Positions 4,941 through 10,600 of a DNA stretch of 23,315 bases are shown piece after piece. The notes below the pieces were generated by a model. It was not told the DNA's origin and searched no databases. It worked only from the letters and a program-made list of their open reading frames with translations. Within the stretch, counting starts at the first letter, position 1. The number at the start of each line of letters is the position of its first letter. The position numbers and the translations under genes were made by a program. The DNA comes from a virus, in the IMG/VR virus record IMGVR_UViG_3300042475_000779, positions 1 to 23,315 of that record, one strand, 5' to 3'.

Positions 4941-5312
4941 TCACACATCCCCATAAAAGGCAGCAGTCAACGGGTCGCGCTTGACCTTACGCTTGAGCTG
5001 TCTCTGCTTGGCTAGTCTTCTTTCCTTTGTGTCGGCATCTTCTTTGGATCGGTGCTTACGCAACCGAGAGCTGCTGCTCACAGGCTCAGGTTTCTCTGCA
5101 TCGACTCCAATGCCGTACCTATAAACAGCAGACCATTGCGTCACACTCGTCTTACGCCACGACTGAATGTGGACATTGCCTTCTGCTCTGAGTCTTTGGA
5201 TCATGTCTCTGCTAGACCTAATCGTGCAATGCAATAACTCGCAAAGCTCAACCGCGGTGTAACCCTTCTGAGTGATCAGGTTGACCAGCTTAGGCATTCT
5301 GGTGGACTTCAT
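4941..5312 (-). CDS. Small winged-helix-type DNA-binding protein
   Basis: 123 residues from the ATG at 5312. That start is preferred over an upstream ATG at 5369 because it overlaps the stop of the preceding 38-residue gene as ATGA and has an AAGGA-type ribosome binding site. Residues about 15-55 look like a helix-turn-helix or winged helix (YTAVELCELLHCTIRSSRD, then IQRLRAEGNVHIQSW), followed by an aromatic YRYGIGVD element. The C-terminal 50 residues are very basic (KERRLAKQRQLKRKVKRD) and could contact DNA or RNA. It is the last gene of the leftward operon, and its stop abuts the stop of the convergent polyvalent-type gene. A transcription regulator is plausible; the target is unknown. Confidence 0.7.
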   Translation of the reverse strand: MKSTRMPKLVNLITQKGYTAVELCELLHCTIRSSRDMIQRLRAEGNVHIQSWRKTSVTQWSAVYRYGIGVDAEKPEPVSSSSRLRKHRSKEDADTKERRLAKQRQLKRKVKRDPLTAAFYGDV

Positions 5313-5425
5313 TTGTCCTTGTCCAGACTCATGTATAAAACTGCAAAGATAACTGCCACGCCTATGCAAGCGCCAGTAAACAGCAAAACAAATAAGGTCA
5401 AGATACTGTGTAGTACTTCAATCAT
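5309..5425 (-). CDS. 38-residue single-helix membrane protein
   Basis: A short gene starting MIEVLHSILTLFVLLFTGAC and ending MSLDKDK. About residues 6-32 form one continuous hydrophobic transmembrane-type helix with a short acidic/basic tail. An AAAGGGG ribosome binding site lies upstream. The start overlaps the end of the upstream gene by 8 nt and the stop overlaps the next start as ATGA, so it fits the translationally coupled operon exactly. Possible roles, all inference, include superinfection exclusion, a membrane-perturbing peptide or a lysis accessory. No family recognised. Confidence 0.65.
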   Translation of the reverse strand: MIEVLHSILTLFVLLFTGACIGVAVIFAVLYMSLDKDK

Positions 5426-5588
5426 AGTTAAGCCCCTTTAATTTCAACTCGATATTCCTCGCGGTCTGCTCGATCTCGCAACCTCCTTTGGCGTAATGGA
5501 TACACTCGTGTATCTGCTCTTCGGTGAGGGATACCCACGGCTTTTTGTAGCTTTGGATGTCGTCGTCGTCTTCTGATTCTTTACGCAT
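5418..5588 (-). CDS. KPW-motif small phage protein (paralogue of the upstream gene)
   Basis: 56 residues: an acidic start (ESEDDDD), then KKPWVSLTEEQIHECIHYAK, and a helical end containing a run similar to ARNIELKLK. The upstream gene (5581-5775) has the same layout, KKPWIGLSETDINAL and then a charged helix ending RATERILKEK. The pair therefore looks like a diverged tandem duplication. The KPW-x-x-L-(S/T)-E motif recurs in small hypothetical proteins of aquatic phages as far as I know. The ATG lies inside the end of the upstream gene (8-nt overlap), with an AAAGAGAAA purine stretch upstream. Function unknown. Confidence 0.65.
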   Translation of the reverse strand: MRKESEDDDDIQSYKKPWVSLTEEQIHECIHYAKGGCEIEQTARNIELKLKGLNYD

Positions 5589-5775
5589 TGTTTTTCTCTT
5601 TCAATATTCTTTCTGTTGCCCTGACCACATCAACCCAATAGTAGAGATCAGGAAGACTGTGTTTAAGTGCGTTGATGTCTGTCTCAGACAATCCAATCCA
5701 AGGCTTTTTTCTGGGTTTAATTTCCTCGCCCCCTACATTGCGTTGCGGGACTGAGATGTTTATTGGTTTCCTCAT
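5581..5775 (-). CDS. KPW-motif small phage protein
   Basis: 64 residues with a basic N-terminus, the KKPWIGLSETDINALKHSLP motif at about residues 23-42, and a helical C-terminus containing VRATERILKEKNN. It resembles the next downstream gene, which shares the KKPW(I/V)xL(S/T)E motif. A good GAGGAG ribosome binding site lies just upstream, and its start overlaps the stop of the 158-residue gene as ATGA. The stop overlaps the downstream start by 8 nt. Function unknown; the Trp-containing turn followed by two helices suggests a compact protein-interaction fold, which is inference. Confidence 0.7.
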   Translation of the reverse strand: MRKPINISVPQRNVGGEEIKPRKKPWIGLSETDINALKHSLPDLYYWVDVVRATERILKEKNNA

Positions 5776-6248
5776 ACCGTCTTCTCCTCAATGACTCTGG
5801 CTCTACGCGACTTTATCTCATTGGTAACAATATCGAGCGCCTTCTCTAGCTGGGCGATGGTGGTGATGTCGAGCTGTGCGTCGTGCAGCTCCATGCCGTA
5901 ATTTATTGCCATCAACTCCGATGCCTTCGCCACAAACCTGTCTTGACGATTGATACCTCTGCGAGACAACTCCAGCAATGCGTCTTGACCTTCTTTTATC
6001 TCGTCTTTGTATTCATGCCCAATGCCAAGCCTTGAGAGGGCTTCGGAGACATTGAGGGCAGAGATGATGGAGTCGATGTCATAACGCTTTGCATGACCCG
6101 TCCTGAGCGCTTCCAAGGCACTATGGTTCTTTATCTTTAGATCGAGTACCGCGCTGCCAGTAGCGGAGACTGGCTTAAAGCCATTGATCACCCAAGTGGC
6201 GACATCTAGTCTGACTCCTTTGGGTTTGTATTTACTTCTTTTTCGCAT
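5772..6248 (-). CDS. Conserved hypothetical phage protein (MRKRSKYKPK type)
   Basis: 158 residues, the largest product of the leftward operon. It opens with a basic MRKRSKYKPKGVRLD segment, followed by an almost entirely helical body with LDLKIKNHSALEALRTG, DSIISALNVSEALSRLGIG, QDALLELSRRGINR and MELHDAQLD segments. I recognise this pattern as a conserved hypothetical protein of proteobacterial phages, but no function is established to my knowledge. The ATG is embedded in the end of the upstream 48-residue gene (17-nt overlap) and an AAGG element lies upstream. Its stop overlaps the next start as ATGA. It could be a regulator or an interaction scaffold; no catalytic motif is visible. Confidence 0.75.
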   Translation of the reverse strand: MRKRSKYKPKGVRLDVATWVINGFKPVSATGSAVLDLKIKNHSALEALRTGHAKRYDIDSIISALNVSEALSRLGIGHEYKDEIKEGQDALLELSRRGINRQDRFVAKASELMAINYGMELHDAQLDITTIAQLEKALDIVTNEIKSRRARVIEEKTV

Positions 6249-6378
6249 TGCGTTTTAACCTTGGGCAGTTTATGCAGAACACTTTTTCCTTGGACTGACA
6301 CACGCCAAGGGTCTCGCACTTGGTGCGTAGCGTTACCCACGGTGGCGGTGTTACCCACTTTGTTTTGACCTCAGTCAT
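6232..6378 (-). CDS. 48-residue four-cysteine (zinc-ribbon-like) protein
   Basis: A short gene with MTEVKTKWVTPPPWVTLRTK at the start and a basic end (RLKRNAKKK). Four cysteines at residues 21, 27, 35 and 38 (C-x5-C-x7-C-x2-C) could bind one metal ion. Its ATG overlaps the stop of the preceding 86-residue gene as ATGA, and it overlaps the next gene by 17 nt, so without it the operon would have an unusual 126-nt gap. Small zinc-ribbon proteins in phages often bind host transcription or replication factors; that role here is inference. Confidence 0.65.
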   Translation of the reverse strand: MTEVKTKWVTPPPWVTLRTKCETLGVCQSKEKVFCINCPRLKRNAKKK

Positions 6379-6635
6379 TGCTGCGCAATCATTTGCATCT
6401 CTAACTCTTTGACGCGCTCGGTCAACTCCTTGACGGTCAGCTCTGCGATCTCCAACTCGTTGCCGTGAGCGCGTCGTGCCATCTGCATTCCAGCGTCGTA
6501 ACCCATCATTGCACCTTTGTGAGCTGCTTCGCTTACCAGTTTACCGATGTCTTGTGGCGACATGATTCTGGCTTTGCCTTCGGCAGCAAGGATGTACTTT
6601 AAGACCATCTCTTTGATTTTCTTTTCTACTGACAT
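6375..6635 (-). CDS. Hypothetical helical/coiled-coil protein
   Basis: 86 residues. The N-terminal half (EKKIKEMVLKYILAAEGKAR, then SPQDIGKLVSEAAHKGAMMG) is helical. The C-terminal 35 residues form a leucine-heptad coiled coil (ELEIAELTVKELTERVKELE). The start lies 1 nt after the upstream stop (TAATATG), with an AGGAAAC ribosome binding site, and the stop overlaps the next start as ATGA. Probably an oligomeric small accessory protein; no family recognised. Confidence 0.7.
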   Translation of the reverse strand: MSVEKKIKEMVLKYILAAEGKARIMSPQDIGKLVSEAAHKGAMMGYDAGMQMARRAHGNELEIAELTVKELTERVKELEMQMIAQQ

Positions 6636-6636
6636 A

Positions 6637-6780
6637 TTAGTTTCCTGTGATCAAAATAAATGCAATGACACCGACGGTTACGCCAGCAAGGAAGATAAAG
6701 ACGCAATCCACAAGGCTGATTTTGTTGTCTTGGTAAGGTCCATCGACTTCAAAATTTTCGGTGTAGTTTTGATGTTTCAT
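6637..6780 (-). CDS. 47-residue single-pass membrane protein
   Basis: A short gene with a polar, aromatic-containing N-terminus (MKHQNYTENFEVDGPYQDNK) and one hydrophobic helix at about residues 24-44 (VDCVFIFLAGVTVGVIAFIL). Only three residues follow the helix, so the topology is probably N-terminus cytoplasmic with a short outer tail, or the reverse. Its ATG shares one base with the stop of the 77-residue gene (TAATG), and the next gene starts 1 nt after its stop. This is the second single-helix membrane protein in the operon. Function unknown. Confidence 0.65.
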   Translation of the reverse strand: MKHQNYTENFEVDGPYQDNKISLVDCVFIFLAGVTVGVIAFILITGN

Positions 6781-7013
6781 TATTCGCTTTCAGAGTTAAG
6801 TTGTGTGAGGGCTTCTTCGCAGATGTGATCCACGATGGACTGCGTAAGCAGATGGGCGATGTCAATCTTCTCGCAAAAGGCATTGACAAGATTCATGCAC
6901 TCAGGGAAGTCTGGCGCTTCCCCGTGGTTAAGTTCTTCGGGTTCGTGTTCTAGGAAGCAGACGAGAGTTACCCCTTCTACCTCACACTTGAATCTGAATA
7001 GGTCTTCTAGCAT
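6780..7013 (-). CDS. Hypothetical acidic protein
   Basis: 77 residues from the ATG at 7013, chosen over an upstream ATG at 7064 because it has a strong AAAGGAG ribosome binding site and leaves a normal 13-nt gap to the previous gene. The protein is acidic (LEHEPEELNHGEAPDFPE) with a beta-type start (FRFKCEVEGVTLVCFLEHE) and a helical end (NAFCEKIDIAHLLTQSIVDH). It contains four cysteines without a clear metal-binding spacing. Its stop shares a base with the next start. An acidic DNA-mimic or inhibitor role is conceivable but unsupported. No family recognised. Confidence 0.7.
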   Translation of the reverse strand: MLEDLFRFKCEVEGVTLVCFLEHEPEELNHGEAPDFPECMNLVNAFCEKIDIAHLLTQSIVDHICEEALTQLNSESE

Positions 7014-7026
7014 TTTGTTTTCTCCT

Positions 7027-7353
7027 TTAATAATCTTCACCAGCGCGTGCGGGTTGTGCGCCAAGGAATTGAGGGTTGTAGGGTGCGTTGTGATTCCATA
7101 CTGTCACCTCATCAATAATCCATTGATAAGGTTGTGAAAGAGAAATGTTTTCTGTGCGAGCAACTTCCCAAGGAATGATGGCTTGCATTAACTGGTTTCC
7201 ATCCATGTCTAAAAATGGTGGGATGTATTTGGCAGAACTCCAACGCTGAAGCACTTTTTTAAAGCTGTAAAAGCCATAAGGAAAACGCAAAACTAAACCT
7301 TGTGGAGAACTTCCAATAACTCCAACATTAAGAGTTTGTGTTGATGAATTCAT
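7027..7353 (-). CDS. Hypothetical protein
   Basis: 108 residues from the ATG at 7353 (MNSSTQTLNVGVIGSSPQG), which overlaps the stop of the upstream gene as ATGA and has a GAGGTG ribosome binding site; an upstream ATG at 7425 would overlap that gene by 76 nt. The protein looks globular, with a Trp/Tyr-rich central and C-terminal part (VLQRWSSAKYIPPFLDMDG and QPYQWIIDEVTVWNHNAPYN) and no transmembrane segment or catalytic signature. Function unknown. Confidence 0.65.
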   Translation of the reverse strand: MNSSTQTLNVGVIGSSPQGLVLRFPYGFYSFKKVLQRWSSAKYIPPFLDMDGNQLMQAIIPWEVARTENISLSQPYQWIIDEVTVWNHNAPYNPQFLGAQPARAGEDY

Positions 7354-7547
7354 GCTGTCACCTCTTTCTTTGCGTCGATGCGTGTGAAAAAATCTGCTTG
7401 TTTGCTGGCTGCGCACTTCGCGCATTGATACTGATCTGCCTTGAACTCAGACCAGTTACCTGACATTGGTGTGCGCAGTATGTTTCTACCGCAAGCAGTT
7501 CTGGATGTCATGCCAGAACCGTATTTGTTTAAGTGCATTACTCTCAT
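7350..7547 (-). CDS. Small Cys-containing (putative zinc-binding) phage protein
   Basis: 65 residues. Cys19 (TACGRN) and the later QCAKCAASK pair (Cys42, Cys45), together with the MHLNKYGSG start, resemble a common small phage protein with a TACG...C-x2-C arrangement; a His near the start may complete a metal site. It ends EVTA, the same as the upstream 59-residue gene. Start and stop both lie in identical 15-nt junctions containing a GAGGTG ribosome binding site and an ATGA overlap. Function unknown, probably a zinc-binding adaptor (inference). Confidence 0.7.
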   Translation of the reverse strand: MRVMHLNKYGSGMTSRTACGRNILRTPMSGNWSEFKADQYQCAKCAASKQADFFTRIDAKKEVTA

Positions 7548-7723
7548 GCTGTCACCTCATTATTCAAGATGGCTAATGCTTCTTTAGCGCTTGATGCCTC
7601 ATAGTCACGGCAGATGGCGAGTTCAATGCCATTGTCGTAAACAGCAATCCATGCACCTGATACGGTGCAATTAAGGCGAGAATTGAATTTTTCCTCTTGG
7701 CAATAAACTTCTACGACTTTCAT
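7544..7723 (-). CDS. 59-residue hypothetical protein, first gene of the leftward operon
   Basis: A short gene starting MKVVEVYCQEEKFNSRLNCT, with beta-type strands (WIAVYDNGIELAICRDYE) and a helical end (SSAKEALAILNNEVTA). A strong AAGGAG ribosome binding site sits 7 nt before the ATG, and a plausible sigma-70-like promoter lies 34-61 nt upstream. The stop overlaps the next start as ATGA. It is therefore the promoter-proximal gene of the leftward unit and probably the most strongly expressed early product. No family recognised. Confidence 0.7.
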   Translation of the reverse strand: MKVVEVYCQEEKFNSRLNCTVSGAWIAVYDNGIELAICRDYEASSAKEALAILNNEVTA

Positions 7724-7756
7724 GTTTGCTCCTTAGCTTCGGTTGTTGATATGCCA

Positions 7757-7784
7757 ATCATACATGAATTGACTAAGTAATCAA
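7757..7784 (-). promoter_or_regulatory. Leftward promoter of the small-gene operon
   Basis: Reading the - strand there is a TTGATT -35 element (7784-7779), a 16-nt spacer and a TATGAT -10 element (7762-7757). The predicted start is about 30 nt before the first gene's ATG. The -35 element lies within an operator-like inverted repeat. Predicted from consensus only. Confidence 0.55.
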
Positions 7785-7803
7785 TACCCTATGGTTTAGT
7801 CAA
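7769..7803. promoter_or_regulatory. Operator-like inverted repeat over the leftward promoter
   Basis: Perfect 8-bp arms TTGACTAA (7769-7776) and TTAGTCAA (7796-7803), 19 nt apart. The left arm is also half of an imperfect 16-bp palindrome (7769-7784, TTGA-N8-TCAA). The repeat covers the -35 region of the leftward promoter, so a protein bound here would block it. The HTH product encoded at 7975 is the obvious candidate binder (inference). Confidence 0.5.
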
Positions 7804-7815
7804 CTATTACCGCCA

Positions 7816-7821
7816 TAAAAT
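7816..7821 (+). promoter_or_regulatory. Candidate -10 element for the structured RNA
   Basis: TAAAAT lies 7 nt before the first base of the 5' hairpin at 7829, exactly where a sigma-70 -10 element would put the start. No good -35 element is seen at 16-18 nt spacing, so an activator or phage factor may be needed, or the match may be chance. Confidence 0.35.
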
Positions 7822-7827
7822 ACATAG

Positions 7828-7930
7828 TGACAGGGTGTAGTTTCCCTGTCGGCTGTGCCTTATGTCTCCGCAAGAGGTGCAGTTGCCTTAACAGGGGGGC
7901 TAGGTGACAGGACTTAGCCTCCCTTTTTTT
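7828..7930 (+). ncRNA. Candidate structured small RNA, about 100 nt
   Basis: No gene covers this stretch, yet it contains consecutive hairpins and ends in an intrinsic terminator. Hairpin 1 is a perfect 7-bp stem GACAGGG/CCCTGTC (7829-7835 with 7844-7850). Hairpin 2 pairs 7851-7860 with 7875-7887 (10 pairs including two G-U and a 3-nt bulge). Hairpin 3 is the 11-bp terminator stem 7894-7904/7913-7923 followed by seven T. A TAAAAT box is placed to start the RNA at the base of hairpin 1. CCTGTC of hairpin 1 can alternatively pair with GACAGG in the terminator loop. It could be a free sRNA or a leader/attenuator of the HTH gene. I know of no matching RNA family. Confidence 0.5.
7894..7930 (+). 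terminator. Rho-independent terminator before the HTH gene
   Basis: An 11-bp stem (7894-7904 with 7913-7923, nine Watson-Crick pairs and two G-U), an 8-nt loop and a run of seven T (7924-7930). It works only in the + direction. There is no upstream + strand gene to terminate, which implies a non-coding transcript or attenuation. Confidence 0.75.
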
Positions 7931-7937
7931 GTCTGCC

Positions 7938-7974
7938 TTGTTGAGTTAATCAATTCTAGGTTAACATACTCAAC
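7938..7974 (+). promoter_or_regulatory. Promoter and operator of the HTH gene
   Basis: A TTGTTG -35-like box (7938-7943), an 18-nt spacer and TAACAT (7962-7967) predict transcription starting at or next to the ATG at 7975. Perfect 7-bp arms GTTGAGT (7940-7946) and ACTCAAC (7968-7974) flank the promoter, and an imperfect palindrome of TTGA-N5-TCAA form lies at 7941-7953. Autoregulation by the HTH protein is likely (inference). Confidence 0.45.
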
Positions 7975-8187
7975 ATGAACTACATAACCGAAATAATAGA
8001 ACGCGCTGAAAAGGCGGGGTTCAAGATGGCAGATATATGCCGTGAGGCTGGCATAGACCAAGCCCAGATGTCTCGATGGGTGGCTGGGCATACTGTGCCT
8101 TTGGTCTCCTCCATCGAGAAGCTCAGAACCGCAACAGATCGCTTGATCGCTGGACGCATTGCGTCTTTAGGGGTCAAGAATGATTAG
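7975..8187 (+). CDS. Cro/cI-like helix-turn-helix regulator, probably leaderless mRNA
   Basis: A 70-residue protein with one XRE/Cro-type HTH domain: helix 1 MNYITEIIERAEKAG, then MADICREAGIDQAQMSRWVA as helices 2 and 3, then a terminal helix (VSSIEKLRTATDRLIAGRI). It has no dimerisation or cleavage domain, so it resembles Cro rather than full-length cI. No ribosome binding site precedes the ATG, and the predicted -10 box puts the transcript start at the ATG, implying leaderless translation. It is flanked by operator-like repeats and overlaps the RuvC-like gene by 8 nt. It probably controls the divergent early promoters. Confidence 0.8.
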   Translation: MNYITEIIERAEKAGFKMADICREAGIDQAQMSRWVAGHTVPLVSSIEKLRTATDRLIAGRIASLGVKND

Positions 8188-9994: not shown

Positions 9995-10600
9995 ATGCTT
10001 AATCTTTCATCATCATCTGGCGGTGGAAACTACATCCGCTTTATGCCATCTGCTAACGCATGGCTCAACTCAAACAAGGAAGAATTCACACCAAAGAAAA
10101 TGGTTGTGGATACTGACTCGTTGCAGACTGGTTGGATGCACCTCGGAGAAGGTGTGCGCGACTGGCAACCAGACGCAAGTCTTGGAAAGAAGGGTGCTCA
10201 ACCGTCACCAGACCATAAGCGTGGTTTCTCCATCAAGTTCTACAACAAAGAAATGGGACTCGCTGAGTGGTCAGCTAACGGCACAGGTCCTAACATGGGC
10301 TTGGAGAAACTCTGGAAAGCAATCGAGGCGGGTCAAGCAGCCAATGCTGGTAAGTTACCCGTCATTGAGTACAAAGGAAGCACGCTAGAAAAGATCGGCA
10401 AAGGCACTACACGCATTCCTAACTTTGATGTGGTGTCGTGGATCGAGAGACCTGCTGGCATGGACGCTGTGGACGACGGCACGCAATCATTTGATAGTGA
10501 CGGCAAGATCACGATGGGAGCACCAGCTCCAGCACCGCAACCTAAAGCAGCGCCTAAGACTGCTATGGCTAGTGCGATTGACGACGACGAGATGTTTTAA
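9995..10600 (+). CDS. Phage single-stranded DNA-binding protein
   Basis: 201 residues. The N-terminal 150 residues form a globular domain with the pattern GGGNYIRFMPSANAWL, LQTGWMHLGEG, KRGFSIKFYNKEMGLAEWSA and KLPVIEYKGS, seen in phage proteins annotated as SSB-like. A disordered Pro/Ala linker follows, and the last residues are acidic with a terminal aromatic (DDDEMF), the hallmark of SSB tails that recruit partner proteins. It follows the nuclease gene and is closed by an intrinsic terminator, so it may be expressed at a high level. An AAAGG ribosome binding site precedes the ATG. Confidence 0.75.
   Translation: MLNLSSSSGGGNYIRFMPSANAWLNSNKEEFTPKKMVVDTDSLQTGWMHLGEGVRDWQPDASLGKKGAQPSPDHKRGFSIKFYNKEMGLAEWSANGTGPNMGLEKLWKAIEAGQAANAGKLPVIEYKGSTLEKIGKGTTRIPNFDVVSWIERPAGMDAVDDGTQSFDSDGKITMGAPAPAPQPKAAPKTAMASAIDDDEMF

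Follow-up and report, generated by a model that had tools for sequence, protein, structure and literature searches.

A predicted RNA gene between two divergent operons

Does the gene-free stretch between the divergent early operons of an uncultured phage encode an RNA of its own, and what would such an RNA do? The window analysed here is the whole 23.3-kb IMG/VR phage record IMGVR_UViG_3300042475_000779, positions 1 to 23,315. An earlier note on its letters had described a stretch free of genes with three consecutive hairpins, a plus-strand terminator lacking a plus-strand gene upstream, and a TAAAAT box spaced to start an RNA at the first hairpin; our inspection bears out each of these features. 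The upstream neighbour is the leftward operon on the minus strand (4941-7723), whose first gene occupies 7544-7723 in the ORF list, and no plus-strand gene adjoins the stretch on that side. Flank comparison showed that the gene content of the leftward operon differs among phages. The 791-aa protein encoded on the plus strand at 2565-4940 matches a PHROG of endolysin type in its residues 411-703 (E 8e-24). The rightward operon begins on the plus strand with a Cro-like HTH gene (7975-8187), which matches the PHROG phrog_4 transcriptional repressor (E 3e-4) and Pfam HTH_Tnp_1 (E 1e-5), followed by genes for a RuvC-like resolvase and a DUF2800/PD-(D/E)XK protein.

All predicted parts of the RNA gene lie on the plus strand. 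The -10 box TAAAAT at 7816-7821 ends 7 nt before the first base of hairpin 1 (7829-7850), in which GACAGGG pairs with CCCTGTC around the loop TGTAGTTT. Hairpin 2 (7851-7884) exposes an apical CTCC at 7866-7869, which is C/U-rich and resembles an anti-Shine-Dalgarno sequence. The segment GCAGTTGCCTT at 7879-7889 joins the near-invariant 3' base of hairpin 2 to GTTGCCTT and is a putative seed (alignments A1, A2, A5 and A8), and GCCUUAAC is unpaired between hairpin 2 and the terminator hairpin in the window copy. The intrinsic terminator (7893-7930) consists of a hairpin at 7893-7924 with a 13-bp stem and the loop GACAGG, and a T7 tail at 7924-7930 that marks the predicted 3' end. This arrangement fits an RNA start at 7828-7829 and a predicted transcript of about 102 nt (7829-7930). 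Beyond the terminator lies a separate promoter of the rightward operon (7938-7967), composed of TTGTTG at 7938-7943, 18 nt, and TAACAT at 7962-7967.

The plus strand of 7829-7930 folds with an MFE of -52.6 kcal/mol, compared with -33.2 +/- 3.2 in dinucleotide shuffles (z = -6.0), and none of 200 such shuffles folded equally well. The opposite strand folds far more weakly (z = -2.6) and has no T-run. A simple scan of the region found seven terminator-like sites, while 5.9 were expected from shuffles; as this is no enrichment, we placed weight on the fold and on its conservation. The fold reached z <= -3 in all 21 lineages tested.

Two other readings of the letters were rejected. A nine-codon frame within hairpin 2 (ATG at 7862 to TAA at 7889-7891, MSPQEVQLP) has no Shine-Dalgarno sequence and is not kept beyond the window's clade, where its changes follow base pairing. 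The terminator loop GACAGG could also pair with the 3' arm of hairpin 1, but clades whose loops or stems differ do not preserve this pairing; the two hairpins share these letters by chance or descent.

Relatives and their layouts

The RuvC-like and DUF2800 proteins served as anchors in searches for contigs with related loci, alongside one DNA pattern; diverged RuvC-like proteins were then aligned, and searching with that alignment brought in further clades. Many IMG/VR phage contigs carry a close copy, and its place never changes: the leftward operon lies on one side, the rightward Cro-like/RuvC-like operon on the other, and the copy precedes the Cro-like gene. Apart from members, a further pattern scan of viral DNA (GTTTCTCC...GTTGCCTT) yielded mainly unrelated sequences.

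Two layouts are found. Two hairpins precede the terminator in the clade of the window and in the L022, L088, L097 and L273 clades; the L102, L140, L256 and L261 clades have one hairpin and the terminator, lacking hairpin 1 and retaining GCAGTTGCCTT. The predicted RNA size varies by clade from about 60 to 105 nt, and an intrinsic terminator with a G+C stem and T-run is present in all copies. Among the close phages L001-L146 (e.g. L001, L003, L016, L021 and L053), hairpin-2 and terminator variants appear in many combinations, as if these parts had been exchanged through recombination. The phages L103-L107 and L286-L335 carry the same Cro/RuvC/DUF2800 block, mostly without the RNA and with a different Cro start region; the carriers within the L286-L335 set are L300, L306, L309, L310 and L311.

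Covariation of the helices

The earlier note had proposed a covariance search of related phage genomes as a check. The covariance model R1, trained on eight sequences of the L022 clade only, did not include the window copy and recovered it at E = 1.8e-4, together with the other copies at syntenic positions; no further match in 585 kb reached E <= 1. The model R2, which comprises hairpin 2 and the terminator and likewise left out the window copy, found it at E = 7.9e-8 and gave one strong copy per RNA-bearing phage. In alignment A5, which is fitted to the structure, 95% of cells are paired, as against 40-59% with the partners slid, and double changes occur in 21 of the 25 pairs. Because A5 leans towards the structure, further controls were run.

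A sequence-only alignment of the window's own clade has 20 double-change cells, where shuffles have 7.0. For hairpin 2, a gapless alignment of 31 columns across diverse clades is 94% paired, with 13 double-change cells as against 3.3 in shuffles. When 3' arms were exchanged among 24 lineages, a test that needs no alignment, the own arms gave a mean of -11.4 kcal/mol and the permuted arms -7.5 +/- 0.45, and none of 20,000 permutations did as well. We also constructed a tree-aware null in which each column's substitutions are redistributed along the tree, and ran it on the structure-fitted A5. Here 17 of 25 pairs, distributed across all three helices, fall below p = 0.05 and 13 below 0.01, and the summed GT is 934 as against 160 +/- 37 (maximum 291). 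All five modelled pairs of hairpin 1 covary between clades (p 0.003-0.03), and the terminator stem covaries as well. Covariation beyond phylogeny, as expected of a structured RNA family, is thus observed: the stems covary under the arm swap, the gapless alignment and the tree-aware null, and the answer to the proposed check is strongly positive in all three helices. We hold it to be very probable that the element is a real, independently transcribed structured RNA.

Letters that stay fixed

The motif GUUGCC just 5' of the terminator is unchanged in all copies collected while the stems drift; several of the collecting patterns contain these letters, and the loci obtained through proteins are independent of them. 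Forms with one hairpin and forms with two both keep it invariant, and of 120 distinct control regions just one combines the TAACAT promoter with a lack of GUUGCC, namely the deletion in L258 (IMGVR_UViG_3300008259_000630). In the predicted folds, every lineage shown leaves GCC(U)U unpaired, consistent with a conserved accessible seed. The loop of hairpin 2 usually contains CUCC, as in UUCUCCU, CUCUCCU, UUUUCUCCA and CACUCCA (GUCUCCGC in the window). CUCC is absent from the loop in L259, L261, L272, L283, L102 and L310, and the loop of some lineages is UGCUUU or UUGUUUCC.

Promoters of the control region

The -10 box of the RNA is conserved in position as TANAAT: at least 74 of 79 copies have it (in this survey a few of the sites picked automatically lay elsewhere), and hairpin 1 begins about 5-9 nt further on. 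The promoter scan returned no recognisable or consensus -35 hexamer for the TAAAAT box; GTCRRSTATT is conserved in the -35 region of most clades. TAACAT stands exactly 7 nt ahead of the Cro-like ATG in 78 of 78 loci, and the Cro-like mRNA of RNA-bearing phages is predicted from this spacing to be leaderless. Across the 120 distinct control regions, the TAACAT promoter is present in 86/86 with the RNA and absent from 33/34 without it. The exception is L258, which by comparison with L264 has cleanly lost the RNA promoter, the hairpin and GUUGCC and has kept the terminator and the cro promoter. As the RNA-bearing phages are related clades, the association between RNA and TAACAT may be a single shared event and does not prove a functional link.

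Palindromes of the TTGA/TCAA type lie at 7769-7784, 7797-7806 and 7941-7953, around the RNA promoter and those of both operons. Their placement suggests possible operators of the Cro-like protein, and the RNA promoter may therefore be under its control.

Database searches

The earlier note had suggested that the RNA was undescribed, and our searches agree. Neither the window nor any of six relatives matched an Rfam 15 family at gathering score on either strand. With the threshold relaxed to E <= 5, cmscan of 7700-8000 returned only rli45 on the opposite strand, far under its gathering score. A blastn search of 7720-7980 against 50,697 records of named phages had no match. In MW202879.1, the nearest named phage by terminase (69%), a model match at 5479-5572 was judged false, since many pairs are broken and the match is the complement of a ribosome-binding site adjoining a terminator. 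A pattern scan of GTDB genomes yielded 45 stretches, none with the required layout, and nothing credible came from 399 genomes belonging to one order when the DUF2800 protein, the window DNA and model R2 were the queries. We found no description of the RNA in the open-access literature. In view of these Rfam, named-phage and bacterial searches, we read the RNA as a phage sRNA family that had not been described before, has a promoter and a terminator of its own and shows an unusual modular layout.

Proposed mode of action

We propose that this small non-coding RNA of tailed phages, whose gene lies between divergent early operons and has a TANAAT promoter and an intrinsic terminator of its own, would be expressed during infection and would act in trans by base pairing. 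One contact would be the loop of hairpin 2, usually CUCC, which is complementary to the Shine-Dalgarno core GGAG; the other would be the exposed GUUGCCUU, complementary to AAGGCAAC. By covering ribosome-binding sites of host and/or phage mRNAs, the RNA would lower their translation. The Cro-like regulator could escape, because its mRNA is predicted to be leaderless and would need no Shine-Dalgarno site. We give a probability of about 0.5 to this reading of a trans-acting antisense sRNA that masks ribosome-binding sites. Analogy with the alpha-r14 sRNAs (PMC10746234, PMC7143759) and with phage sRNAs such as PreS and VpdS (PMC12197685) lends it support.

Some phages offer matching sites of their own. 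In L102, the loop UCUUGUUUCC is a perfect complement to GGAAACAAGA, where the first leftward gene begins; in L140, the loop GUUUCUCC is complementary to GGAGAAAC of the first leftward gene, and GUUGCCUU to AAGGCAAC ahead of the DUF2800 gene. A test of own versus swapped targets was weakly positive, with uncorrected p = 0.013 for the left mean and 0.007 for the right minimum, and its other two measures were not significant. Candidate ribosome-binding sites differ among clades, and no conserved target within the phages' own genes was found. The gene with ATG at 6635 was rejected as a conserved target; its ribosome-binding site ACAGGAAACUA pairs with UAGUUUCC/UGU of hairpin 1 with one bulge, and this is unmatched in other clades. 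In the window (6628-6645, minus strand) the pairing of its ACAGGAAACUAAUAUG with the hairpin-1 loop consists of 8 bp, a bulge and 3 bp; it is common within the window's clade and absent elsewhere. The gene at 9995 and the DUF2800 gene were also rejected: they have AAGGC-like sites in certain clades but not in others, and comparable sites are present in phages that lack the RNA. Host genes appear likelier targets than the phages' own. Because the own-phage target tests are weak, we infer the masking mechanism rather than observe it.

The absence of a conserved own-phage mRNA target also fits an RNA that acts in trans without silencing mRNAs. Such an RNA might be a sponge for a host small RNA, or a ligand or decoy for a protein, be it Hfq, ProQ, RNA polymerase or one made by the phage; GUUGCC and the loop would make the contact. 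That GUUGCC is the sole strictly invariant part of both forms speaks for this, and phages have precedents in AgvB and VpdS for sponging and chaperone competition (PMC12197685). However, we saw no sign of a partner, an Rfam family match included, and a pure decoy would not need the anti-Shine-Dalgarno core that the loop usually has. We hold this alternative as a tentative one, with perhaps a quarter of the weight.

The position of the RNA raises a further alternative. It lies on the same strand as the Cro-like operon and directly upstream of it in every phage, its terminator is always kept, and the co-occurrence with the TAACAT cro promoter is complete. Hairpins 1 and 2 might thus act in cis as a leader that controls read-through of the terminator, by attenuation or by RNA-based antitermination as in HK022 put, and the early operon would be switched from the upstream TAAAAT promoter. 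The put RNAs measure about 70 nt and form two stem-loops behind early promoters (PMC9378689). Yet the operon has its own conserved promoter beyond the terminator, which L258 also keeps after deletion of the RNA promoter and hairpin, and on these grounds we disfavour a cis role. Moreover, no conserved alternative pairing of hairpin 2 or GUUGCC with a terminator arm was seen, and the one-hairpin forms do not have the two-stem put architecture. We consider this leader role unlikely.

That the terminator alone matters, as an insulator between divergent transcription units with incidental hairpins upstream, would suit its retention in every copy, even in L258 where the rest is lost, and the ordinary frequency of terminator-like sites in the region, but this reading is very improbable and already largely refuted by the independent covariation of hairpin 2, and an insulator needs neither the kept spacing of the -10 box to the first hairpin nor an invariant GUUGCC.

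The proposed masking of ribosome-binding sites could be extended to a translation switch made by the phage, in which the loops would dampen leader-dependent translation while the Cro-like regulator, predicted to be leaderless in RNA-bearing phages, is still made, the RNA and the regulator forming a two-part device. We regard this extension as a long shot.

Comparison with known RNAs

The closest likeness is to the alpha-r14 or "cuckoo" sRNAs (NfeR1 of Sinorhizobium), short intergenic three-hairpin RNAs with their own sigma-70-type promoter, in which the stems vary and anti-Shine-Dalgarno loops stay fixed (PMC10746234, PMC7143759). The phage family shares these traits, including C/U-rich anti-Shine-Dalgarno motifs in unpaired regions between drifting stems. 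In contrast to alpha-r14, its motif is UCUCC or only CUCC instead of CCUCCUCCC and is not found in every loop or lineage; the loops carry CUCC, UUCUCCU, UUUUCUCCA, UGCUUU and others, and the terminator loop is unrelated, so CCUCCUCCC is not unpaired in all three hairpins. Its fixed element is GUUGCC beside the terminator, it is borne by phages and not by alphaproteobacterial chromosomes, and the cmscan of 7700-8000 matched no known RNA family model.

Lambda PreS and VP882 VpdS (PMC12197685) are similar as small phage RNAs, and ours too is probably made in infection and likely reprograms other RNAs. They show no relation in sequence or structure to the present family, as judged from literature descriptions and not by alignment, and what defines this family is the covariation seen across many uncultured phages.

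Lambda OOP, P22 sar and P1/P7 c4 (PMC12197685) are also short structured RNAs near a phage regulatory region, and the exposure of target-complementary loops to a ribosome-binding site is a trait of c4 that our RNA would share. OOP and sar overlap the gene to which they are antisense, whereas the opposite strand here (7724-7974) has no gene except a mechanical 63-aa ORF at 7900-8091 that overlaps the Cro-like gene, and the window has no Rfam match to any family at gathering score.

HK022 put RNA (PMC9378689) likewise has two adjacent hairpins near an early promoter. It acts in cis within the transcript of its operon, whereas the phage RNA ends at its own terminator ahead of a separately promoted operon and exists in one-hairpin forms; the terminator and the conserved cro promoter separate the two, and weak read-through may occur.

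Significance

To our knowledge, the small RNAs of uncultured phages have hardly been catalogued. This one is missing from Rfam although a widespread group of phages has it in its main control region. Several evolutionary constraints make the role of the RNA testable, namely the paired stems, the invariant GUUGCC, the one-hairpin and two-hairpin versions and a natural deletion. The strict pairing of the RNA with a repressor gene that is predicted to be leaderless raises the question of how these phages separate their own translation from that of the host.
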